In this document: one piece after another, positions 21,434 through 35,797 of the stretch
Numbering within the stretch: the first letter of the stretch is position 1
How the letters are laid out: each line of letters opens with the position of its first letter
Source: Truepera sp. bin119
GTDB taxonomy: Bacteria > Deinococcota > Deinococci > Deinococcales > Trueperaceae
Reading direction: 5' to 3'
DNA length: 40,371 bases
NCBI GenBank assembly: GCA_002239005.1
Contig: MPNL01000030.1
Span: 1-40,371 of the forward strand
Notes under the pieces: model-generated
Told to the model about the DNA's origin: nothing
The model's input: only the letters and a program-made list of their open reading frames with translations
Databases searched by the model: none
Made by a program: the position numbers and the translations under genes

Positions 21434-21781
21434 TCAGGCTGGCGGCGGCGGCCGCGACTCCGCCCGGTTCGCCCTCTCGACAAACTCGCGGGCGAACATC
21501 TTCAGCTCTGCCGAGACGGCCTTGTTACCGGTGGCGTCGCTGTAACTGTCGGCCATGGAGAAGAGGGTTTGGAACACGAAATCGTTCATGTCCTCGACAG
21601 TCATGTCGACGGTCCACAGATCGATCCGCATGGCGTTCCGCACCTCACCGTCCCACAGGGAGAGGATCATCGCCTTGGCCTGCTGAAGGCCCGGCTCGGG
21701 GGCATCGTCCGCCTCCCAACGAATATCCTGAATGCCCTCGTCGTCCATGGAGACCGACAGGCGGATGTCGGAGGTGGTCAT
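21434..21781 (-). CDS. gldC: GldC-like protein
   Basis: A 115-residue soluble protein matching the layout of gliding-motility protein GldC of Bacteroidota: an N-terminal beta segment (SDIRLSVSMDDEGIQDIRWEA), GLQQAKAMILSLWD near 30-44, MRIDLWTVDMTVEDMNDFVF near 51-70, and a helical end. In Flavobacterium, GldC is required for efficient gliding, but homologues occur in non-gliding bacteria, so motility should not be inferred. No signal peptide or membrane segment is present. A TAAGAT box 6 nt upstream of the ATG, without a Shine-Dalgarno, suggests leaderless transcription. The PD40 gene follows 60 bp downstream on the same strand. The family call is from motif recognition and is fairly confident. 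Confidence 0.8.
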   Translation of the reverse strand: MTTSDIRLSVSMDDEGIQDIRWEADDAPEPGLQQAKAMILSLWDGEVRNAMRIDLWTVDMTVEDMNDFVFQTLFSMADSYSDATGNKAVSAELKMFAREFVERANRAESRPPPPA

Positions 21782-22095: not shown

Positions 22096-22260
22096 CTTTA
22101 GACGATGGAACCACTTGTCGACAGGGTGATCGCAGCGCCGGAACAGTACGATATCCCCGAAGCCGGGACCCCCGCGGAGACGGATCGTGGACCTTTTCAT
22201 GCCCCCCCACCGGCCGCTCCGCTAGACTCTGCTTACATCTGGCTTTATTGGGGGATCCTC

Positions 22261-22926
22261 ATGAGCGAACTCGATCTGGTCCAGCTTGCGGAGAATCCAG
22301 ACCCGCGCGCACCCTGTCTGTTGCTCCTCGACACTTCGGCTTCGATGTCGGGCGAGCCGATCCGGGCACTGAACGAAGGATTGACGCTGTTTAAGCAGGA
22401 CGTCATGGGCGATGCCCTTGCCCGCCGACGCGTCGAGGTGGCGGTCGTCGGCTTCGGCAACGGCGGGGTGCGCACGGTTCAGAACTTCATTACGGTGGAG
22501 CAGTGGGATCCGCAGGAGCTTCGGGCTGGCGGTTCCACCCCGCTGGGGCAGGCACTCAAGGTCGGCCTGACACTTCTCCGCGAGCGCAAGGACATGTACA
22601 AGCGGGCCGGTCTCCAGTACTACCGTCCTTGGCTCTTGCTGATCACTGACGGTGAGCCGACCGACTCCTGGGAGGATTCGGCACGGGCGGCTCAGGATGA
22701 GGATTTCCGCCGCGGCTTGCTGTTCTTTGTAGTTGGGGTCGAGAGGGCGAACATGGAGAAGATCGGGCGCATCGCGCCAGCCGAGCGGCCCCCCTTGAAG
22801 CTCAAGGGACTTCGGTTCGGCGAGCTATTCCTCTGGCTGTCGCAGAGCCAGCAGGCGGTATCGCACTCTCGTGTCGGCGACCAACTGGCCCTGCCCCCGA
22901 TCGGCTGGGCGGAGGTCGACACGTAG
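22261..22926 (+). CDS. VWA-domain protein, TerY type
   Basis: A 221-residue single-domain von Willebrand factor A protein. The metal-ion-dependent adhesion site is intact: DTSAS at 24-28, a conserved Thr in the GGSTPLGQAL segment near 98, and the Asp of LLITDGEPTDSW near 130. No signal peptide or membrane span is present, so it is cytosolic. The pattern MSELDLVQLAENPDPRAPC followed by the MIDAS motif is that of TerY-like proteins, the VWA member of the TerY-P triads described with tellurite/stress systems. I start at ATG 22261 (GGGGG ribosome binding site); the open frame reaches 22105 but the extension is not family-like. The PP2C phosphatase gene starts 5 bp after its stop, so the two are an operon. 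Confidence 0.9.
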   Translation: MSELDLVQLAENPDPRAPCLLLLDTSASMSGEPIRALNEGLTLFKQDVMGDALARRRVEVAVVGFGNGGVRTVQNFITVEQWDPQELRAGGSTPLGQALKVGLTLLRERKDMYKRAGLQYYRPWLLLITDGEPTDSWEDSARAAQDEDFRRGLLFFVVGVERANMEKIGRIAPAERPPLKLKGLRFGELFLWLSQSQQAVSHSRVGDQLALPPIGWAEVDT

Positions 22927-22931
22927 GACCG

Positions 22932-23684
22932 ATGATCGCCGCAGCAGATACCGCCTGGCAAGTGGTGGCGGCTTCGAAGCCTAGCGTCAACCACCGGAAG
23001 GGCCACAACGAGGATGCCTGGCTGGCCTGCTCGCGCCTCGACCGGAGTCTGATCCTCGCCATCGCCGATGGTGCCGGTTCGGCCCGCTGCGCCTCTGCGG
23101 CCTCGCGCCTGGCAGTCGCCCGCGCCCGAAACCTCCTCGCAACTGGCCCACTCCCCTTCGGAGAGCCCTGGCATGAGCGGCTCCTTACCCTCCTCTGGGG
23201 GGTCCGCTCGACCCTGCTCTGGGAGGCGGAGCGTGGCAATGGACAAGCCCACGACTACGCCACCACACTACTCCTAACGGTCGTGACGACCGGCGAACTC
23301 GCCACCCTTCAACTCGGCGACGGTGCGATCGTGGTTCGCCACCGAGACGGTCTGCTAGAGCGACCGCTCCAGCCAGTCCGGGGCAGGCACGCCAGCGAGA
23401 CAGTTTTCGTGACGAGCGACGGTGCCATGGAAGCGGCCCGCACCGCAGTCCTCCCTGCTAGAGAGTTGGTTGGGGTGGCGCTGCTTACCGATGGGCTCGA
23501 GCCGGTCGCAACCTCGGTTGCGACCGGCGCACCCCACGACCCTTTTTTCAGTCCACTTTTCGCATTCGCGGGCGGTGACGCTCCCGTGAGGAGGAGTCGC
23601 GAACTAGGCGCTTTCCTCGACACTCCAGATCTGAACGAGCGCACCCAGGACGACAAGACCCTTATCCTGGCGGTGCGCTCATGA
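22932..23684 (+). CDS. PP2C-type Ser/Thr protein phosphatase
   Basis: A 250-residue metal-dependent phosphatase that would remove phosphate from Ser/Thr residues, probably those placed by the kinase encoded next to it. Metal-binding motifs are visible: HNEDAW (residues 25-30), IADGAGSA (44-51), LLTDGLE (near 187), and the C-terminal DDKTLILAV (near 242). It lacks membrane segments and extra domains. It starts 5 bp after the VWA gene and overlaps the kinase gene by 4 bp (ATGA), so the three genes are translationally coupled. This kinase/phosphatase/VWA set is the TerY-P triad arrangement. The substrate is unknown. Confidence 0.92.
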   Translation: MIAAADTAWQVVAASKPSVNHRKGHNEDAWLACSRLDRSLILAIADGAGSARCASAASRLAVARARNLLATGPLPFGEPWHERLLTLLWGVRSTLLWEAERGNGQAHDYATTLLLTVVTTGELATLQLGDGAIVVRHRDGLLERPLQPVRGRHASETVFVTSDGAMEAARTAVLPARELVGVALLTDGLEPVATSVATGAPHDPFFSPLFAFAGGDAPVRRSRELGAFLDTPDLNERTQDDKTLILAVRS

Positions 23685-25180
23685 CCCCCCTCTTCGATCA
23701 TCACCGGCGACCGCTTCGACTGGGGCCGGAGTTGGGGCGGGGCGGTGAAGCGGTCGTCTATGCCCTGTCTGAAGATCCGGGCCGCGCGGCAAAGCTCTAC
23801 CTCGCACCCGACCCAGGCCGGGCTGAGAAACTCGAGCTGATGATCGCCTACGCCCCTCGCGACCCGGCCAGGGAGGGGGGGCATGTGGCGATCGCCTGGC
23901 CGGAGGCGTTGGTGCGCGATACCGAGGGGGGTGTCTGCGGATTCACCATGCCCCGGCTCGACCTCTCGACCAGCCTACCCCTGCACCAGCTCTATCATCC
24001 CGGGACCCGGCGTCGACGGGCACCCGGAATCAACTGGCTCTTCCTGGTACGGGCCGCCCGCAACCTGTGCGCGATCCTGGCCACGCTGCACCGCTCGGGC
24101 TACGTTGTAGGCGACCTCAATGAGAGCAACATCCTGATCGACGATAGAGCGCTCGTTACGCTGGTCGATCTCGACTCCATCCAGGTGCAGCAGCGAGGCC
24201 GGACCTACCGCTGCCCCGTCGGCAAGGCGGAGTTCACACCGCCCGAACTCCTGGGCCGCGACTTCCATTCGGTCACCCGGCTGCCGCGCCACGACCGTTT
24301 CGGCCTAGCAGTACTGATCCATCTCCTACTCATGGAGGGCGTTCACCCCTTTGCGGGCGTCTACCGTGGCGAGGCCGATCCACCAAGCCTTGTCGACAAC
24401 ATTGCGGCCCGTCGCAGTCCGCTGCTAGGGAGTGCGCTGCTGGTGCCCTCGCCAACTGCCCCATCTGCGACCCTCCTCCCCCCTCAGCTGAGGCGACTGC
24501 TGCGCCGAGCTCTCGGCGGGCCGCCTAGCTTTCGACCAAGCGCCGAACGATGGCAACAGACCCTGGAGGCCGTCGAGGACGCGCTCGCGACCTGCCCGAA
24601 GGTGCCCACCCATGTCTACCGTCGGCACCTCGACCACTGCCCCTGGTGCGATAGGAGCGAGGCCCTGGGCATCGACCCATTCCCAGGAGGAAGCGGTCCC
24701 GCCCCAGCAAAGAGGACGATCCCCATTCCAGAGGCCCCACCGCCACTCCTCGCCTTCCGAGGCACTCTGCGGAATCTCGTAAGGAGCCTGCCGCTAATGA
24801 CGCTGCTGGCCCTAGCAGCTCCAGCGACCGTCGGGGGCCTCGGGACCGTTGTGCTGCTGAGGTGGCTCGCCATCGACTGGCCTCCTGCCCTCGCACTGAC
24901 CAGCACCTTTGTCCTCCTCTTGGCGTCACCCCTAGCGGCCCTCGCAACGCTCTACTGGGCGGCTAGGGTCTCTCCTACGGTCTACCGGATCCTGCGACGC
25001 TCTGAGCGGGCCGCGCGCTCCGTTCTGGGTGCCTCCGCCCTAGCATTCGCAGCGAGCCTGGCTCTGGGGGAGTTGATCGGAAGCGGTTCGATCCTGGACG
25101 GGGATTGGCTGCTTCTGCCGAGCCTCTGGCTGCTGGCCTTTCTAATCTGGCGGCGGTTTGAGCGCGCCGACCGAGCGTAA
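23681..25180 (+). CDS. Membrane-anchored protein kinase with zinc knuckle
   Basis: A 499-residue protein. Residues 10-310 form a eukaryotic-like kinase domain with a Gly-rich loop (ELGRGGEAVVY), ATP-binding K38 (AAKLY), an atypical catalytic loop (VVGDLNESNILID, Asp145 and Asn150, with G in place of the HRD Arg), and DLD (163-165) in place of DFG. A CPWC pair near residue 325 (HLDHCPWCDRSE) is a short zinc-binding-like motif. The C-terminal 125 residues carry three to four transmembrane helices (LPLMTLLALAAPATVGGLG, LALTSTFVLLLASPLAALAT and others). It is coupled to the PP2C gene by a 4-bp overlap. Family knowledge: such kinases pair with PP2C and VWA proteins in TerY-P triads. It should be an active but divergent kinase at the inner membrane; targets are unknown. 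Confidence 0.88.
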   Translation: MTPLFDHHRRPLRLGPELGRGGEAVVYALSEDPGRAAKLYLAPDPGRAEKLELMIAYAPRDPAREGGHVAIAWPEALVRDTEGGVCGFTMPRLDLSTSLPLHQLYHPGTRRRRAPGINWLFLVRAARNLCAILATLHRSGYVVGDLNESNILIDDRALVTLVDLDSIQVQQRGRTYRCPVGKAEFTPPELLGRDFHSVTRLPRHDRFGLAVLIHLLLMEGVHPFAGVYRGEADPPSLVDNIAARRSPLLGSALLVPSPTAPSATLLPPQLRRLLRRALGGPPSFRPSAERWQQTLEAVEDALATCPKVPTHVYRRHLDHCPWCDRSEALGIDPFPGGSGPAPAKRTIPIPEAPPPLLAFRGTLRNLVRSLPLMTLLALAAPATVGGLGTVVLLRWLAIDWPPALALTSTFVLLLASPLAALATLYWAARVSPTVYRILRRSERAARSVLGASALAFAASLALGELIGSGSILDGDWLLLPSLWLLAFLIWRRFERADRA

Positions 25181-25341: not shown

Positions 25342-26409
25342 ATGAAAGGACTCATCCTCGCGGCAGGGCTGGGCACCCGGCTGCGGCCTATAACCAGCCT
25401 GAGGCCGAAGCCCATCATCTCAGTGGCCAACAAGCCGCTCATCCACTACGCAGTCGAGGACCTAGTCGACACCGGGGTAACCGAAATCGGAGTGGTGGTC
25501 GGCCACGGCACCGCCGATTCCTTCCAGGAGACCCTAGAAGGGATCGGTGGCGTGAGTTTCGAGTACATCTACCAGAATCCTCCACAGGGGCTTGCGCACG
25601 CCGTGAAGGTGTCGCAGGACTTCTTAGGGGACGACCCGTTCGTGATGTATCTGAGCGACAACATCTTCGAGAACGGGGTCCGGGACTTCGTCCGCGCCTT
25701 CGACCGGGAGGACGGCATCAGCGCGGTGCTGGCGCTGGCTCCGGTCGAGGATCCGCGGACGCTAGGGGTGGCGGTGGTCGAGGGCGACCGTATCACCCGG
25801 CTAGTGGAGAAGCCGGAGGTACCACCCAGCAATCTGGCGGTGGCGGGGGTGTACGTTTTCAATCGGTCGATCCACGACGCCATTGAGGTGCTGCAGCCAG
25901 GTGCCAAGGGTGAATACCAGATCACCGACGCAATCCAGCTGCTGATCGAAGCAGGGCATTACATTAAGCCGGTGCAGATTAGGGGCTGGTGGAAGGACAC
26001 CGGCCAGGCTGAGGACATCCTCGACGCCAATCGACTGCAGCTTCTCAAGCTGCGGCGACGCATTGAGGGGGAGGTCGAGAACGCTGAGGTGGTGGGCGAC
26101 GTGGTGATCGAGCCAGGGGCGGTGGTGCGCAACACTACCGTGTTCGGGCCAGCGCTCATCGCAGCAGGGGCCGTGGTTGAGGAGGCTTACATCGGCCCGT
26201 TCACCACTGTCGGCTGCGAGGCAATCATCTGTAACGCGGAGTTGGAGTACACCGTGGTCGGCGCCCGCTCAAAGATCGAAGGGGTCCGGACGCGTCTCCA
26301 GGAGAGTCTGATCGGCGAGGAGGTAGTCATCTGTGGCCATAACGGTCGGCCCAGCACCCACCGCCTGATCGTGGGTGACAAGAGCCAGGTGGTGTTGCAG
26401 CAACTCTGA
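25342..26409 (+). CDS. rmlA: Glucose-1-phosphate thymidylyltransferase, long form
   Basis: Joins dTTP and glucose-1-phosphate to give dTDP-glucose, the entry to dTDP-rhamnose and related sugars for surface polysaccharides. The 355-residue protein has the nucleotidyltransferase signature LAAGLGTRLRPIT with downstream KPIISVANKPLI, and the catalytic region VMYLSDNIF (near 95-103), GEYQITDAIQ and WKDTGQAEDIL. The C-terminal 110 residues form a left-handed beta-helix of hexapeptide repeats (GDVVIEPGAVVRNTTVFG). This long form is common in actinobacteria, archaea and Thermus relatives. No rmlB/C/D gene is near, so the sugar product is inferred. ATG 25342 is supported by AAGGGG upstream. The 160 bp before it hold a possible TATCGT -10 at 25314-25319. 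Confidence 0.93.
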   Translation: MKGLILAAGLGTRLRPITSLRPKPIISVANKPLIHYAVEDLVDTGVTEIGVVVGHGTADSFQETLEGIGGVSFEYIYQNPPQGLAHAVKVSQDFLGDDPFVMYLSDNIFENGVRDFVRAFDREDGISAVLALAPVEDPRTLGVAVVEGDRITRLVEKPEVPPSNLAVAGVYVFNRSIHDAIEVLQPGAKGEYQITDAIQLLIEAGHYIKPVQIRGWWKDTGQAEDILDANRLQLLKLRRRIEGEVENAEVVGDVVIEPGAVVRNTTVFGPALIAAGAVVEEAYIGPFTTVGCEAIICNAELEYTVVGARSKIEGVRTRLQESLIGEEVVICGHNGRPSTHRLIVGDKSQVVLQQL

Positions 26410-27091: not shown

Positions 27092-30001
27092 CTAGAAACG
27101 TACACTGAAGTAGAAGAGGCCGGAGTACTCCATGGTTCTAGAGCCCAACGCCGCTCCCACCGACAGTTCCGTACCGAGTGAGAAGCGGCCCTCGCGATAG
27201 CTACCGCTCAGATCCAGCAGCATGCTGCTCCGGGCAGAACTCGACCGTAATTCCTCTCCAGATACCTGCGCAATCGTCTCCGCGCCGCCAAACATCCGCT
27301 CAAAGCCCAGCGAGCCACGGAGTGAGAACTCCCCGCTAGCCCAGGCGTGTGCGGTCTCGGCCATCATCCCGAAGCCGCCGCTGAAGCGACCTGAATTGGG
27401 GAACGAGACTCGAGAGTTCACCGCATCGGTGAAGCTGCCTATGGAGACCCCGGTATGAGCCAGCCAGGCCCGAGGGGTTACCCTCATTCGTTCGCTCAGC
27501 GCCAGCTGCCGACCTACCTCGAGACCCAGCGAGGAGCCGTGGCCGGCAACCCCCGCTCTGAGCAGGTACCGTTTGTCTGAGAAGAGGTCGACCTGGTAGC
27601 CGGTAAAGGAGAGGCAGCCAGCCGCGTAGAAGTCGCTCGCGTCCTTCCATTGGAGGCCGAGTGCGGGGCCCGCCCCCCGCACCTTGATCTCCCCACCACC
27701 GGTAGGTGAGGAGACAGTGGCAGAACTGGACACATGATGCACGGAGAGCCGGCCGTCGACCTCTTCGCCGAGCTCGAGGTTCAGGCCGCCCGCCGCGTAG
27801 AAGCGTTCAAAACTATAGCCCGCGCCCGCGGTCGAGGCTTCGGGTTCATACCTCCCCGTCCCGCCCGAGAGCTGGGCCTGGGCGGGAGAGTCGGGCGAGG
27901 GGAAACACTCTCTGGTCGCCGTCAGCCGCTGCAGGAAGTCGGGCAGGATCTCGTAGAGGGAGGCTCGGGGCGCATACTTCTCTACGACAACTTTTCTCTT
28001 TACTTTAACTTCCTGAGGCTCGTTTTCTCTCTGAGGCTCGTCCGGGTCGGGTCTCGGAACTTCGTCGAAGTCTGCGGCAGAGAAGTCCCGATCGGCGATG
28101 ATCCCTGCCTGCCTCTCGGAGATGGTCCACGGAGTCGTGCTGGTATCGACGGTGACCCCGTCCTCCCGCAGGGAGACGTCCCAGGCCCCGTTCGGAGCCC
28201 TACTACCGGTGTTGCCGGTCGCACCATCGTGCAGTTTCACTCCATTGACTACGATCGTGGTCTCGCCGCCGCCGTTCAGGATGTAGTCATCACCGATGAC
28301 CTCCCCCACCCGGCGACCGCCAAGATTCATGTCGACCAGGAGTTTGGGAGCCTCTCCCGCTGCGCGAATTGCGATGCCGGATGCTGCGCCGACGGTTCCC
28401 TGGGGTCCGATGAAGACTTTACCGCCGCCGGCAAGGAAGATGCCCGCCGCCTCGCCGGTGCCGCCGAACACCCGGCCGTTCACCCTAACCGTCTGTTGGC
28501 GGTAACCGTCTTCTCCTACCTCGGCCACGTACTCTTCCGTGCCATCGGGGACACTGTCTGTATCGTTCGTGTTGAGGAGGCCTATCCGAACGCCGTCCGC
28601 GTTCTCCCCGCTCGCTTCGACCTTGCCCCTCTGGATAAGGATGCCGATAGTCCCCAGGCCTTGAGAGTGATAGACAAGGATGCCATGGGCGGCCAACTCG
28701 CTGGTGTAGATCCCTCCCCCCCCAACCAGGATGTCGATATCCCCCGTGCCGGTATGCCAGGCAAATATACCAAGGCTTCCCGGGCCACGCGTCGTGATGC
28801 CGCTCGCTCTCATTTTGATGTCGAGGTTGCCGCTGTTATCGCCGGCGGGGGCGTAATGACGGGCATGGATGCCGTGCGAACTGGTGCCCTCCGTAGTGAT
28901 CTGGCCCTCTCTCACTTCGATGTGAACATTGCCGGTGTTTCCGCTGTCGGGGTTGTAATTCCAGGCAAAGATTCCATGAGAGGCCGTGAGGCCTTCGTCG
29001 TCGAGCGCCGTCGCTTCTGTTCTGATGATGAGGTTGTGGAGGTTAACGCGAAGGAGGTTGGGACCATAATTCCAGGCATAGATGCCTATACCTCTAAAGC
29101 CCTTCGTGATGACGGTGCTATCTCTCATGTCGATGTTGAGGTCGGTCTCACTAGGGCTGCTGTTTTCTAAGTGATTTCTCGTATAGATACCGAGGGCGTA
29201 ATCACCCACAGCGGTGATGCTGACATCGCTAAGGTCGAGTTCGACCTTGCCAGAACCTAGCTTCCAGGCGCTGATGCCGTGACTTTCCTCGCCCATGGTG
29301 GTGATAGTGGCTTTTGTCGCGTCGATGCGGATATCGCCTTCGTCGGCGACCTGATTAATAGCGTAGATGCCTAGGGAGTCTTCACCCATAGTGGTGATAG
29401 TGGTGCGCTGCTCAGCCTCCTGTATCTCGATGAGGATGTCGCCTCTGCCACCCTCAGAGATAAGGCCAAAGAGACCGTTGCCGTACCTGCCTGACGAGGT
29501 GAAGCTCAGGCCCCGAACGTAGGTGTTGGCATCGCCGGCGGTACCCTCATGCCAGTTGTGGATACCGTAGCCTTTCTCTTCCAATGTCTTGATGGTGCTT
29601 GTGTCGACCTCTACGGTGATGTCGCCCGTGCCGTCATGCCTTGCGAGGATGCCGAAGGCGCCCGAGCCGGTCGTATCGATAGTGCTACGGGTGACGGTTT
29701 GGCTGGCGATGCTGGGGCCGACGTCGATGTCGATGTCCCCTTCGCCTTCATGGAAGGCGTGGATGCCGTGCTCCCTGAGGGCCGTCGTATCGATGTCGAT
29801 CCCTTGAGCGTCGATATTGATGTCATCAGTAGAGGTATTGTCCTCTATGCACTCGATTCTCTCTCCGCTTCCGGGAGTATTGCTGCAGACGGCTGTGGCT
29901 TGGGCCCGGGTGTCTCCCAGGCCCAAGCTGAGCGCGGCAGTCAGCAGGAGCGTCAGGGCGATGGTGCTCAGCGGCAGCCGCGCAAAGGCATGTGACCTCA
30001 T
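27092..30001 (-). CDS. Large autotransporter (type V secretion)
   Basis: A 969-residue surface protein. A signal peptide (LPLSTIALTLLLTAALSLGL, cleavage near residue 34) is followed by a passenger of about 600 residues with some twelve imperfect repeats centred on (S/A)xGIxAxN/H, then GDIxIDV and TITTxG. This suggests a beta-helix, one coil or pair per repeat. A charged linker (about 645-675) leads to the translocator, introduced by PRASLYEILPDFLQRL near 678, a hallmark of autotransporter barrels, and ending in the outer-membrane signature YFSVRF with C-terminal Phe. The barrel should insert in the outer membrane and expose the passenger. Upstream on the same strand are TAGACT (-10-like, 30029-30034) and AAAGAGG. 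The start abuts a truncated IS1595 transposase, so its native promoter may have been replaced. Function is unknown; adhesion is typical. Confidence 0.92.
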   Translation of the reverse strand: MRSHAFARLPLSTIALTLLLTAALSLGLGDTRAQATAVCSNTPGSGERIECIEDNTSTDDINIDAQGIDIDTTALREHGIHAFHEGEGDIDIDVGPSIASQTVTRSTIDTTGSGAFGILARHDGTGDITVEVDTSTIKTLEEKGYGIHNWHEGTAGDANTYVRGLSFTSSGRYGNGLFGLISEGGRGDILIEIQEAEQRTTITTMGEDSLGIYAINQVADEGDIRIDATKATITTMGEESHGISAWKLGSGKVELDLSDVSITAVGDYALGIYTRNHLENSSPSETDLNIDMRDSTVITKGFRGIGIYAWNYGPNLLRVNLHNLIIRTEATALDDEGLTASHGIFAWNYNPDSGNTGNVHIEVREGQITTEGTSSHGIHARHYAPAGDNSGNLDIKMRASGITTRGPGSLGIFAWHTGTGDIDILVGGGGIYTSELAAHGILVYHSQGLGTIGILIQRGKVEASGENADGVRIGLLNTNDTDSVPDGTEEYVAEVGEDGYRQQTVRVNGRVFGGTGEAAGIFLAGGGKVFIGPQGTVGAASGIAIRAAGEAPKLLVDMNLGGRRVGEVIGDDYILNGGGETTIVVNGVKLHDGATGNTGSRAPNGAWDVSLREDGVTVDTSTTPWTISERQAGIIADRDFSAADFDEVPRPDPDEPQRENEPQEVKVKRKVVVEKYAPRASLYEILPDFLQRLTATRECFPSPDSPAQAQLSGGTGRYEPEASTAGAGYSFERFYAAGGLNLELGEEVDGRLSVHHVSSSATVSSPTGGGEIKVRGAGPALGLQWKDASDFYAAGCLSFTGYQVDLFSDKRYLLRAGVAGHGSSLGLEVGRQLALSERMRVTPRAWLAHTGVSIGSFTDAVNSRVSFPNSGRFSGGFGMMAETAHAWASGEFSLRGSLGFERMFGGAETIAQVSGEELRSSSARSSMLLDLSGSYREGRFSLGTELSVGAALGSRTMEYSGLFYFSVRF

Positions 30002-30539: not shown

Positions 30540-31094
30540 ATGGAGAGTGACCTTACCGCTGCAGACTGGGCACTCATTGAACCACTGGTCCCCAGGCAGG
30601 GCCGGCTGGGCCGTCCTCGAGAGCGGGGTATCAGGGAAGTCTTCAACCCAGTCCAGTACCAACTGGCAACCGGTTGCCAGTGGTGGGCACTTCCCAACAG
30701 TTAAGGGCGGACAAGGGCGACTTCGTTGGGCCCGTAGAGCACGTTCTTGCTTCAGCCCCCCCTTCTCCACCGTCCAGAACCACTTCTACAACTGGAGAGA
30801 CAGCGGTCAGTTCGACCGGATGATGGAGGCGTTACGAGCTCTGGCACGAGCTGAGGCGGGGCGGGATCTGGAGCCGACAGCAGCGGTCCTAGACAGCCAG
30901 TCGGCGAAGACAACCGAGACCCGAAGAGTCCGTCCTCGCGGTGGTCCTCGAGACTATGACGCTGGCAAGAGGATCAAGGGCTGCAAGCGCCAGCTAGCGG
31001 TCGACATCGAGGGCTCACTGATCGTGGGCTAGGTAGCTGCAGCCAAGGACGGATTCTTCGGATCAGTCCAGGACCGGGACAGTGCCCCGGACCC
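30540..31094 (+). pseudogene. Broken IS5-family transposase
   Basis: The N-terminal part (30540-30704) encodes MESDLTAADWALIEPLVP and TGCQWWALPNS, then stops. A later frame (from about 30765) continues with SPPFSTVQNHFYNWRDSGQF, then VLDSQSAKTTETRRV, DYDAGKRIKGCKRQLAVDIE and, after another stop at 31030, VQDRDSAP. These are the N-terminal helix-turn-helix and first catalytic Asp region of an IS5/IS1031-type transposase. The C-terminal half with the remaining catalytic residues is absent. Between the two parts lies one arm of a 51-bp inverted repeat, whose other arm begins at 31095 where the homology ends. The element is non-functional. Confidence 0.85.
30703..30753 (+). repeat. 51-bp inverted repeat, left arm
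   Basis: Begins AAGGGCGGACAAGGGCGACT and ends GTTCTTGCTTC. It is a perfect reverse complement of 31095-31145, 341 bp downstream. It interrupts the transposase reading frame between LPN and PPFSTV. Confidence 0.95.
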
Positions 31095-31145
31095 GAAGCA
31101 AGAACGTGCTCTACGGGCCCAACGAAGTCGCCCTTGTCCGCCCTT
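31095..31145 (-). repeat. 51-bp inverted repeat, right arm
   Basis: Begins GAAGCAAGAACGTGCTCTAC and is the exact reverse complement of 30703-30753. It replaces the 3' half of the transposase after VQDRDSAP. Beyond it, GGGGTACC (31174-31181) and GGTACCCC (31199-31206) could form a small hairpin. Confidence 0.95.
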
Positions 31146-31286
31146 TAAGGAGTTTCAGGCTACCCTGGTCCATGGGGTACCTCCAGGCCAATGAGTTGGG
31201 TACCCCCTTATCATCGACACAATTCGTGACACAGAAAAGCTTACGCTACCGCCGCCGACAGGACGGAAGGGACCGTCGCGTATCGG

Positions 31287-31292
31287 TAGAAT
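31287..31292 (+). promoter_or_regulatory. Putative -10 of leaderless pepF operon
   Basis: TAGAAT matches TANNNT and ends 8 nt before ATG 31301, with no ribosome binding site between. Same geometry as proS. Confidence 0.5.
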
Positions 31293-31300
31293 GCGGGGCC

Positions 31301-33019
31301 ATGCCAAACACAGTTAACACCACCGACCAACTGCAGTGGCCCGAAAGGGCCACCTGGTCTCAGTTTGAGGCGAGATTCCGGGCACTGCTAAACAGCGACC
31401 TCAAGGTCGAAGGGGTCGAATCCTGGCTCAGGTGTTGGAGCGAACTCGAAACGGATATCTACGAGGAGGAGGCCCAATTGTACCGGGCCAAGGACGAGAA
31501 CACGGCCGACCGGTCGGCCGAAGCGGCCTACCTGGAGTTCTTGCTGGAGGTCCTCCCTGAGGTGGAGCGGGCCTCCCAAAGGCTCAAGGAACGGCTGCTA
31601 GCGCTCGAGGGCTACACCCCACCACCGGATCAGGAGGAGCTGCTGAAGGCGTGGCGCAGCGACGCAGCTCTCTTCACCGAGGCGAATGTCGGTGTGAAGG
31701 CAGAGGAGCGAGCGCTAGCCAACGAGTTCAACAAGCTCAAGGGTAGCCTCTCGGTAGAGTTCGACGGAGAGACCCTCACCATCCCCCAGGTACAACTCGT
31801 ACTGCAGCGGCCCGACCGGGAGGCGCGCGAACGTGCCTGGCGCGCCATCCAAGCCGCCGAGGCGAGCGTCTCCGATCAACTCGGGGATCTGTTCGAGCGG
31901 CTGCTGGCCAACCGCCGCCTCCAGGCGGAGAACGCGGGCTTCACCGACTACCGGGCGTTCCGCTGGCGGGAGTTGGGCCGCTTCGACTACACCCCCGAAG
32001 AGAGCTTGGCGCTTCACGACGCCATCGCCACAGAGGTAGTGCCCCGGGCAACTGAGTTGGCTGCGCGGCGCCGACGCACCCTCGGGCTCGACAGCCTGCG
32101 CCCCTGGGATCTCGCCTGCGACGTGCGCGGCCGCCCCCCGCTCGCGCCCTTCGTCTCCACCAGCGAGCTCGAGGAGGGCCTCGAGCGCATGTTCCGGCGG
32201 CTCGACCCGGTCCTAGGCGAGCAGTTCGCCTCGCTGCGGGACGGCTGGCTCGACCTCGAAGCACGCTTGGGGAAGGTCCCGGGGTCAGGCTACCAGCTCA
32301 CCTTCCCTCGCTCCGGCAAGCCCTACATCTACTGGAGCGCGGTCGGCAGCGACGACGACCTAGTCACCATGCGACACGAGGCGGGCCACGCCTTCCACGC
32401 CCTAGCGGCCCACGAGCGGCAGTCGCTCCTGTGGAATCAGAGGGCCGGCGCCGAATTCAGCGAGGTCGCCTCAGAGGCCATGGAGCTACTCACCCTCCCC
32501 CACCTCACGCGCGAGGCGGGCGGCTTCTACACTACGGAAGACGCCGACCGCTCCAAGGCGGAACTGATCGAGCGAATCCTCAACCTGCTGCCCACCCTCG
32601 CTCTGCGCGATGCCCACCAGCACTGGATCTACACGCAGGCACCAGAGGGGGTCACCGCCGACGACATCGGCGAGCGCTGGGGCGAACTCTACAAGCGCTT
32701 CCTTCCCTTTGTGGACTGGTCCGGTCTCGAGGCCGAGCAGGCCCGCGCCTGGAAGGTCATCCACCTGTTTGGCTACCCGTTCTACATGCTCGAGTACGGC
32801 ATCGCCTACCTCGGCGCCATCCAGATCTGGCGCGCCTCCCTCGAGGACCCTGAGGGGACCCTGGCGCGCTACAGGGAGGCGTTAGCACTTGGCGGAACCC
32901 GACCTCTCCCGGAGCTATTCAGCGCAGCTGGCGCACGACTCGTCTTCGACCGGAAGGGTGTCGCCGAACTCATGGACTTCGTCATGCAACAGTTCCCCGC
33001 GGGCGAGGCACCGCAGTGA
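31301..33019 (+). CDS. pepF: M3B oligoendopeptidase (PepF type)
   Basis: A 572-residue cytosolic zinc metallopeptidase that cuts oligopeptides internally. The helical N-terminal half carries the substrate channel. The catalytic site is HEAGHAFH with His359, Glu360 and His363; a third ligand Glu lies about 27 residues on (SEVASEAMELL). Later family motifs (DWSGLEAEQARAWKVIHLFG, FYMLEYGIAYLGAIQIW) are present. I chose ATG 31301 rather than the longer frame from 31082, whose extra residues fall in inverted-repeat DNA. A TAGAAT box lies 8 nt upstream. Its stop overlaps the M32 gene start by 4 bp, so it heads a three-gene peptidase operon (M3B, M32, M29) that could degrade peptides completely. Confidence 0.94.
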   Translation: MPNTVNTTDQLQWPERATWSQFEARFRALLNSDLKVEGVESWLRCWSELETDIYEEEAQLYRAKDENTADRSAEAAYLEFLLEVLPEVERASQRLKERLLALEGYTPPPDQEELLKAWRSDAALFTEANVGVKAEERALANEFNKLKGSLSVEFDGETLTIPQVQLVLQRPDREARERAWRAIQAAEASVSDQLGDLFERLLANRRLQAENAGFTDYRAFRWRELGRFDYTPEESLALHDAIATEVVPRATELAARRRRTLGLDSLRPWDLACDVRGRPPLAPFVSTSELEEGLERMFRRLDPVLGEQFASLRDGWLDLEARLGKVPGSGYQLTFPRSGKPYIYWSAVGSDDDLVTMRHEAGHAFHALAAHERQSLLWNQRAGAEFSEVASEAMELLTLPHLTREAGGFYTTEDADRSKAELIERILNLLPTLALRDAHQHWIYTQAPEGVTADDIGERWGELYKRFLPFVDWSGLEAEQARAWKVIHLFGYPFYMLEYGIAYLGAIQIWRASLEDPEGTLARYREALALGGTRPLPELFSAAGARLVFDRKGVAELMDFVMQQFPAGEAPQ

Positions 33020-34536
33020 CCTCGACCATAGCGAGCCTTAGAGCCTACCTGGTGGAGACCGCCGATCTCACCTCGGCAACGGCACTGCTGTCGTGGGATC
33101 AGAACACCCACATGCCTCCCGCAGCGGCGGCCGAACGGGGGCGGCAACTGGCCGCCCTTCACAGGGTGATTCACCAGCGACTGATCGATCCCGAACTCGG
33201 GCGCATCCTGGACGAACTCGAGGGGCTAGAGGACCGACACCCTGCCAATTCGGATGTCGTCAGCCTGATCCGGGTCGCCCGCTACCGACATCAGCACTCC
33301 CTCCGGGTCCCGACCGAGTTCAGGGTGCGCCAGGCCGAACATCAGGCGGGCTCCTACCAGAACTGGCTCGAGGCGTGGGAGGCGAGCGATTTCGGCGTGG
33401 TGGAGGAAACGCTCGAGACCACTCTGGACCTCTCGCTCGAGTTCTCCTCATTCTTCCCCGAAGCCGACCACCCTGCCGACCCCCACATCGCTACGGCCGA
33501 TACGGGCCTCACCGCAACTGAGGTCTCAAGGGTCTTCGGCGAACTGCGCGCCTCCCTGGTCCCGCTCGTCCAGCGTGTCGTAGAGAGGCCCGGGCCCGAC
33601 AGTAGCGTCCTCTACGGCCCCTTTCCACGGGAGGCGCAAGTAACCTTCGCACTCGACGTAGCCCGTGACTTCGGCTTCGACTTCGGACGGGGCAACTGGG
33701 CCTGGACCCACCACCCGTTCGCCACCAAGATCTCCCCCGACGACGTGCGGATCACCACTCGCGCCAGCGAACGCCACCTCGGGGACGGAGTGTTCGCTAC
33801 TCTGCACGAGGTCGGACACGGTCTGTACAACCAGGGTGCCAAGGCTGCCGGGCCGATTCTCGACGGCGGCCTGGGTCGACCCGGCGGCTTCTCCACCGCG
33901 ATTCACGAGAGCCAGTCGCGGCTGTGGGAGAATCTCGTCGGCCGCAGCCTCCCCTTCTGGCAACACTACTATCCCACTCTCCAGGACACTTTCCCCGAAG
34001 CTCTCCACAACCTCCCCCTCGAACACTTCTACGCCGCTATCAACAAGGTCGAACCCTCTCTTATCCGAACCGGTGCCGACGAATTGACCTACAACCTACA
34101 CATCATGATCCGGGTCGAGCTCGAGCGGGCCTTGCTCGAGGGCTCGCTGCCGGTTCGGGAGCTCCCCGAGGCGTGGCGGGCCTTGTACCTGAGGGACCTG
34201 GGGATTGAGCCGGAGAGGGATCGAGAGGGGGTGTTGCAGGACGTGCACTGGTACTCGGGGCTTATCGGGGGCGCGTTTCAGGGATACACATTGGGGAATG
34301 TACTGGGTGCACAGTTTTTCGAGGCTGCCAAGGGGGCCGACGTGGAGGTCGAGGGGGGTGTTGGACGTGGGGAATTCGGCTCTCTGCTGGGCTGGCTCCA
34401 GGACACCATCTACCGCCACGGCATCCGCTTCTCCACACCTGAACTGGTGGAACGGGTTACGGGAAAGCGTATGACGACCGCGCCGTACCTCCGTTACCTG
34501 ACGGAGAAGTTCGGTCGCCTGTATGGGTTGGACTGA
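33016..34536 (+). CDS. M32 carboxypeptidase (Taq type)
   Basis: A 506-residue metallocarboxypeptidase that removes C-terminal residues from peptides. The M32 fingerprint is clear: N-terminal WDQNTHMPPAAAAERGRQLA, the zinc motif HEVGHGLY with His264, Glu265 and His268, and HESQSRLWEN (His297, Glu298), which supplies the third ligand. Further family segments are LIRTGADELTYNLHIMIR and HWYSGLIGGAFQGYTLGNVL. Length is typical of the Thermus aquaticus enzyme and its relatives (about 500). The GTG start at 33016 overlaps the pepF stop (GTGA), so translation is coupled. The aminopeptidase gene follows 13 bp after its stop. The protein should be cytosolic, as no signal peptide is seen. Confidence 0.95.
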   Translation: MTSTIASLRAYLVETADLTSATALLSWDQNTHMPPAAAAERGRQLAALHRVIHQRLIDPELGRILDELEGLEDRHPANSDVVSLIRVARYRHQHSLRVPTEFRVRQAEHQAGSYQNWLEAWEASDFGVVEETLETTLDLSLEFSSFFPEADHPADPHIATADTGLTATEVSRVFGELRASLVPLVQRVVERPGPDSSVLYGPFPREAQVTFALDVARDFGFDFGRGNWAWTHHPFATKISPDDVRITTRASERHLGDGVFATLHEVGHGLYNQGAKAAGPILDGGLGRPGGFSTAIHESQSRLWENLVGRSLPFWQHYYPTLQDTFPEALHNLPLEHFYAAINKVEPSLIRTGADELTYNLHIMIRVELERALLEGSLPVRELPEAWRALYLRDLGIEPERDREGVLQDVHWYSGLIGGAFQGYTLGNVLGAQFFEAAKGADVEVEGGVGRGEFGSLLGWLQDTIYRHGIRFSTPELVERVTGKRMTTAPYLRYLTEKFGRLYGLD

Positions 34537-34549
34537 GCGTTAAGCCGCC

Positions 34550-35797
34550 ATGAGCGATACCAGCGACAGGAGGTTTCAGGAGCAGCTCGCGGTCTACGCC
34601 GAGGTCGCTGTGCGGATAGGGTTGAACCTTCAGCCGGGGCAGCAACTCCTAGTCAACGCCTCGACCGACGCCGCACCGCTGGCGCGACTCATTGCTGCGG
34701 AGGCGTATCGGGCCGGCGCCGAGTTAGTCGACGTACTCTGGAGCGACCCTGGGGTGACGCTGGCGCGATTCCGGCACGCCCCTACCGAGAGCTTCGACCT
34801 TCACCCCACCTGGCGGGGCGAGGCCTTCCGTCAGGTAGGGGAGCGAGGCGACGCCGTGCTCTACCTGCACTCGCCCAATCCCAACCTGCTAGCCGGACAG
34901 GACCCTGAGAAGCTCCGCCTCCACCAGCGCGCTACCGACCGGGCGATGCGGCCTTACAACGAAGCCCGCGACCGGCAGAGGAGCAACTGGACCATCGTGT
35001 CAGTCCCCAACTACGCCTGGGCGGCCAGCGTCTTCCCCGACCTCCCCACAGAGGCGGGGAGGCGACGCCTCTGGGAAGCGATCTTCGAGGCAGTTCGCCT
35101 CAACGAGGGCGACCCGGTGGCTGCCTGGAACAATCATATCGCCGACCTGAACAGGGTCCTCGTCCACCTCAACGGGCGCCGCTACGCCCGCCTGCACTAC
35201 CGCGCACCAGGCACCGACCTCGAGGTCGGACTGCCGGAGGAGCACCGCTGGATGAGTGCCCGCTTCCTCACCGACCGGGGCACACCCTACATCGCCAACC
35301 TGCCCACGGAGGAGGTATTCACCAGCCCTCACAGCGGCCACACCGAGGGCACCGTCGCCGCCTCACTGCCGCTCAGCTACGGCGGCATCCTGATCGAGAA
35401 CTTCGGTCTCAGATTCGAGGCCGGACAGGTCGTCGAAGCGTGGGCAGAGAGCGGCTATGAGACCCTCATGGGTATCCTCGCGACCGATGAGGGCGCTCGC
35501 CGTCTGGGCGAGGTGGCGCTCGTCCCCCACGCAAGCCCCATCTCACAGTCAGGATTGCTCTACTACGATACCCTGTTTGACGAGAACGCCGCCTGCCACC
35601 TCGCCCTCGGCCGCGGCTTCACCTTCACCGTTGACGACTGGCAGGGAAAGAGCGACGAGGAGATTGCCGCTGCCGGCATCAACAGGAGCCTGACCCACAT
35701 CGACTTCATGGTTGGATCGAGTGAGATGGATATAGATGGAGTGCGTGCGGACGGCTCGGTAGAGGCGATTATGCGCGGTGGGGAGTGGGCATTCTGA
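34550..35797 (+). CDS. M29 aminopeptidase (AmpS/AmpT type)
   Basis: A 415-residue metal-dependent aminopeptidase that releases N-terminal residues. M29 features include the N-terminal YAEVAVRIGLNLQPGQQLLV and DAVLYLHSPNPNLL. Metal-site segments are NLPTEEVFTSPHSGHTEGTV (near 242-262), LGEVALVPHASPISQSGLLY with DTLFDENAACHLALG (near 324-360), and THIDFMVGSSEMDIDG near the end (385-400). The Glu/His/Asp ligands expected in these stretches are present. It starts 13 bp after the M32 gene and completes the peptidase operon. No signal peptide is present, so it is cytosolic. Aminopeptidase T of Thermus belongs to this family, another hint of Deinococcota relationship. Confidence 0.94.
   Translation: MSDTSDRRFQEQLAVYAEVAVRIGLNLQPGQQLLVNASTDAAPLARLIAAEAYRAGAELVDVLWSDPGVTLARFRHAPTESFDLHPTWRGEAFRQVGERGDAVLYLHSPNPNLLAGQDPEKLRLHQRATDRAMRPYNEARDRQRSNWTIVSVPNYAWAASVFPDLPTEAGRRRLWEAIFEAVRLNEGDPVAAWNNHIADLNRVLVHLNGRRYARLHYRAPGTDLEVGLPEEHRWMSARFLTDRGTPYIANLPTEEVFTSPHSGHTEGTVAASLPLSYGGILIENFGLRFEAGQVVEAWAESGYETLMGILATDEGARRLGEVALVPHASPISQSGLLYYDTLFDENAACHLALGRGFTFTVDDWQGKSDEEIAAAGINRSLTHIDFMVGSSEMDIDGVRADGSVEAIMRGGEWAF

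Follow-up and report, generated by a model that had tools for sequence, protein, structure and literature searches.

The three genes at positions 22261–25180 of the window (the whole analyzed stretch of 40,371 nucleotides) encode a VWA protein, a PP2C phosphatase and a Ser/Thr kinase, and probably (at roughly 0.65) act on their own as a switch for reversible phosphorylation, with a kinase anchored in the membrane; within the TerY-P class, they belong to the YegL-PphC-YegI subfamily. The family is widespread and the triad unremarkable within it; what is new here is its place in a junction that is either occupied or empty among related genomes. The host genome amounts to 3.2 Mb in 91 contigs, and its nearest named relatives are Trueperaceae (Deinococcota).

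According to the ORF map of the window, the three genes are tightly packed on one strand in an operon-like arrangement, in agreement with the original prediction of a tightly coupled set: all are co-directional, 5 nt separate the VWA stop from the PP2C start, and the kinase ATG at 23681 shares a 4 nt overlap with the PP2C stop. The YegL/TerY-like VWA gene (22261..22926, +; 221 aa) was called from the ATG at 22261 to the stop at 22926, as its relatives begin at the equivalent of this position, even though a longer frame opens at 22105. It is followed by a PP2C_2 phosphatase gene resembling PphC, also named YegK (22932..23684, +; 250 aa; Pfam and alignment), and by a YegI-like Ser/Thr kinase gene (23681..25180, +; 499 aa). 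The Pfam matches to VWA (E = 7.5e-09), PP2C_2 (E = 9.4e-40) and Pkinase (E = 3.9e-08) were all above their own curated cut-offs. A scan for promoters and terminators returned no convincing element. Elsewhere in the window, an IS1595-type transposase gene (135–1088) lies directly ahead of a gene (1295–2794, +) for a single 499 aa protein in which an N6/N4 DNA methylase is joined to an HNH endonuclease domain at the C-terminus. At 27092–30001 (−), a gene of this Deinococcota genome encodes 969 aa with an autotransporter beta-domain at the C-terminal end, and three metallopeptidase genes of the different families M3, M32, and M29 follow each other at 31082–35797 (+).

When compared with E. coli, the VWA protein shares 44% identity with YegL over 212 aa (4e-52), the phosphatase 31% with PphC (4e-25), and the kinase 36% with YegI over 318 aa (2e-54). 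Judged by sequence similarity, the triad belongs to the YegL-PphC-YegI subfamily of the broad TerY-P class, and its closest specific relative is E. coli yegL-pphC-yegI. The label "TerY-P type" given to it originally is thus right for the broad class, which PMC11090510 describes as combining a VWA protein and a PP2C with a Ser/Thr kinase that has a zinc-type motif behind it, but it misses this more specific kinship.

The residues expected at the active sites are in place. The MIDAS of the VWA protein (DTSAS at 24–28, T93, D130) is complete and kept in 50–51 of 51 aligned sequences. The metal-ligand motifs of the phosphatase are NED (26–28), DGAG (46–49), GDG (129–131), TDG (186–188), and DDKT (240–243), and their D28, D46-G47, D130, D187, and D240-D241 are kept in 55–57 of 57 sequences. 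In the kinase, K38, D145, N150, and D163 recur in 84–85 of the 85 aligned kinases, and D165, C305, H311, C320, and C323 in all 85. The DLD that had been predicted in place of DFG was indeed seen (residues 163–165), but it does not set this kinase apart as divergent, since DxD in place of DFG is invariant across the 85 family kinases. The predicted zinc-like CPWC pair is likewise present (320–323), but not as a lone pair: the kinase core is followed by C-x5-H-x8-C-P-W-C and, because C305 and H311 are equally invariant, the four residues C305, H311, C320, and C323 (24593..24649, +) probably form one putative C-H-C-C zinc site.

The multi-span C-terminal membrane anchor was recovered as a prediction, with four hydrophobic segments beyond the CPWC and four predicted transmembrane helices at residues of about 355–498 (24743..25174, +), modeled by AlphaFold with moderate confidence as long helices (355–395, 402–430, 432–466, and 478–498). 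The kinase lobe was modeled with a pLDDT mostly > 90, and its closest solved fold is PknB. No C-terminal OB-fold was found in the kinase, either by Pfam or in the AlphaFold model, which shows only helices past residue 321. Searches against solved structures found no relative of the VWA protein or of the PP2C and matched the kinase only to general kinases. A membrane tail is not new in itself, because YegI is already known to be a Ser/Thr kinase bound to the membrane, which phosphorylates itself and is dephosphorylated by PphC, as summarized in PMC13232886, which cites Rajagopalan et al. 2018 and 2020 as the primary YegI/PphC papers.

The likely role of the triad is that of a putative kinase/phosphatase switch in which the kinase would be anchored in the membrane and the VWA protein would be a metal-binding adaptor. 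The kinase would autophosphorylate and/or phosphorylate a partner, and the soluble PP2C would reverse this phosphorylation. The VWA protein, binding metal through its MIDAS, could act as an adaptor or gate between the PP2C and the kinase, or with the target. The zinc site and the membrane tail would keep the kinase at the inner membrane and, probably, help to provide its input, and the switch as a whole would add a niche-specific, non-essential response. The lack of any FHA gene in the genome that could read the phosphorylation counts against such a switch. A membrane-embedded kinase may tie the system to an envelope signal, as was suggested. Quite doubtful is a more detailed version, in which the Trueperaceae triad is a membrane-input module: its four-helix tail would sense an envelope condition or phage entry and so adjust kinase against phosphatase, and the family would change its input by swapping tails.

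In order to place the triad within its family, the GTDB species were scanned sparsely with two short kinase motifs, which gave 289 confirmed places, the best 80 of which were read. The loci span Cyanobacteria, Acidobacteria, Verrucomicrobia, Armatimonadota, and other phyla, and this widespread family includes the E. coli genes. Among the best 80 of the 289, all 53 loci with the three homologs on one strand share the order VWA-PP2C-kinase, so the order is not due to chance. No conserved gene other than the triad was found across phyla, as the remaining clusters resembled antisense frames or cyanobacteria-specific genes. Three relatives have a gene for an ammonium transporter close to the triad, but it was rejected as a conserved partner because its copies share only about 33% identity and differ in position. 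At least one hydrophobic segment follows the CPWC in 71 of 75 complete kinases (range one to eight). The tails vary further: WD40 repeats occurred in five and an FGE-sulfatase domain in one of the ten kinases scanned, and the tail of YegI gave a weak helix-hairpin-helix match below the cut-off. The four-helix tail of the window kinase is thus one among several kinds. At loci L057, L022, L025, L066, and L082, an FGE-sulfatase domain or WD40 propellers stand behind the same CHCC site and a membrane segment. A second, distant family kinase (28% identity, CPWC shared) was seen in a related genome (L017, G001:C565, 452–2329), preceded by a partial PP2C-like frame, and the same genome carries a full triad besides.

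The triad sits inside a conserved divergent junction, with a gldC-like gene on its left (21437..21781, −) and an rmlA-type nucleotidyltransferase gene on its right (25342..26409, +). We compared 25 genomes of the family in which these two genes lie close together and divergent. The junction is empty (66–468 bp) in 22 of them, among which is G002, the nearest relative, with 284 bp. In G000, G004, and G016 it measures 3.4–4.5 kb and holds the triad, always in one orientation. Two genomes (G001 and G017) carry the triad elsewhere, outside the junction, and its overall distribution is patchy (5/39 family genomes). Because the same junction is empty in 22 genomes and occupied in three, the three genes move as one dispensable unit, lost or gained together. 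In the RmlA tree, the three junction carriers fall among non-carriers in one supported clade of 11, and the triad tree, ((window, G016), G004) with supports of 94/91 and 94/94, agrees with the RmlA phylogeny. One arrival followed by about three clean losses would fit this carrier pattern well; repeated insertion of the triad at the same site and in the same orientation may also have occurred and would need one change fewer. Together, the swappable kinase tails and a junction occupied or empty in close relatives offer natural comparisons for finding the job of the switch.

The main rival explanation is phage defence, because protection against T7-like phages is known for TerY-P triads (Gao et al. 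2020, as reported in PMC7699616; see also PMC11090510): the triad would be an anti-phage module that senses infection, phosphorylates host or phage targets, and halts the infection. Its patchy presence and its clean presence or absence at one junction would suit an accessory defence set, but the adjoining genes are housekeeping genes with no further defence genes among them, the placement is stable in three genera and not in an island, and the kinase-OB-fold fusion that PMC11090510 describes for defence-proven triads is absent here. In PADLOC, the VWA protein and the PP2C had no match, and the matches of the kinase were all generic kinase ones; this would be weak evidence against defence, and since E. 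coli YegI, PphC, and YegL likewise gave no TerY-P-specific match, the result speaks neither for nor against it. Overall, we regard a defence role as unlikely. A pseudokinase within a triad that serves for scaffolding or binding is very improbable: DxD replaces DFG in all relatives, but the catalytic and metal-ligand residues K38, D145, N150, and D163 are all present and near invariant, YegI is reported to autophosphorylate without the equivalent Asn (summary in PMC13232886), and the conserved PP2C partner argues for a real phosphate. The Ter-type tellurite/metal-response signaling proposed originally is hardly credible, as membership in the broad TerY-P class, the metal ligands suggested by the MIDAS and CHCC sites, and a single generic TerC-family gene on another contig (C48) are set against a genome devoid of TerD and TerB, a VWA protein without the TerY_C metal-binding domain (VWA-type families only in the Pfam scan) and with about 28% identity to plasmid TerY against 44% to YegL, and the finding that one TerC-family copy says nothing, because 9 of 14 control genomes also match. 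The absence of TerC and TerD genes at the triad, correctly noted beforehand, is not peculiar but expected, because the neighborhood of E. coli yegL-pphC-yegI is also free of ter genes.

Among the known systems, TerY of the plasmid ter operon has the VWA domain in common with the window protein, but its annotation includes a metal-binding TerY-C domain. The TerY-P triads of CoCoNuT systems, with a kinase fused to a zinc ribbon, resemble the window in their TerY-like VWA, PP2C, and kinase with a zinc-type motif (PMC11090510), whereas no CoCoNuT core gene was recognized among the main genes of the window and the window kinase has a membrane tail. The stand-alone anti-phage TerY-P of Gao et al. 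2020 is likewise a three-gene VWA/PP2C/kinase cassette that needs no other genes; where its kinases end in an OB-fold, that of the window has a CHCC site and membrane helices. E. coli K-12 yegL-pphC(yegK)-yegI shares all three families and their order with the window, and YegI matches the window kinase in the position of its CHCC/CPWC motif, in DxD for DFG, and in membrane segments past the CPWC. The differences are that in K-12 pphC and yegI are separated by an inserted yegJ, and that YegI lacks the catalytic-loop Asn (GDVNQNS) present in the window kinase (N150). YegI also has a C-terminal helix-hairpin-helix-like region, whereas the window kinase has none and ends in four membrane helices; the input or output of the Trueperaceae switch may therefore differ from that of its E. 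coli relative.
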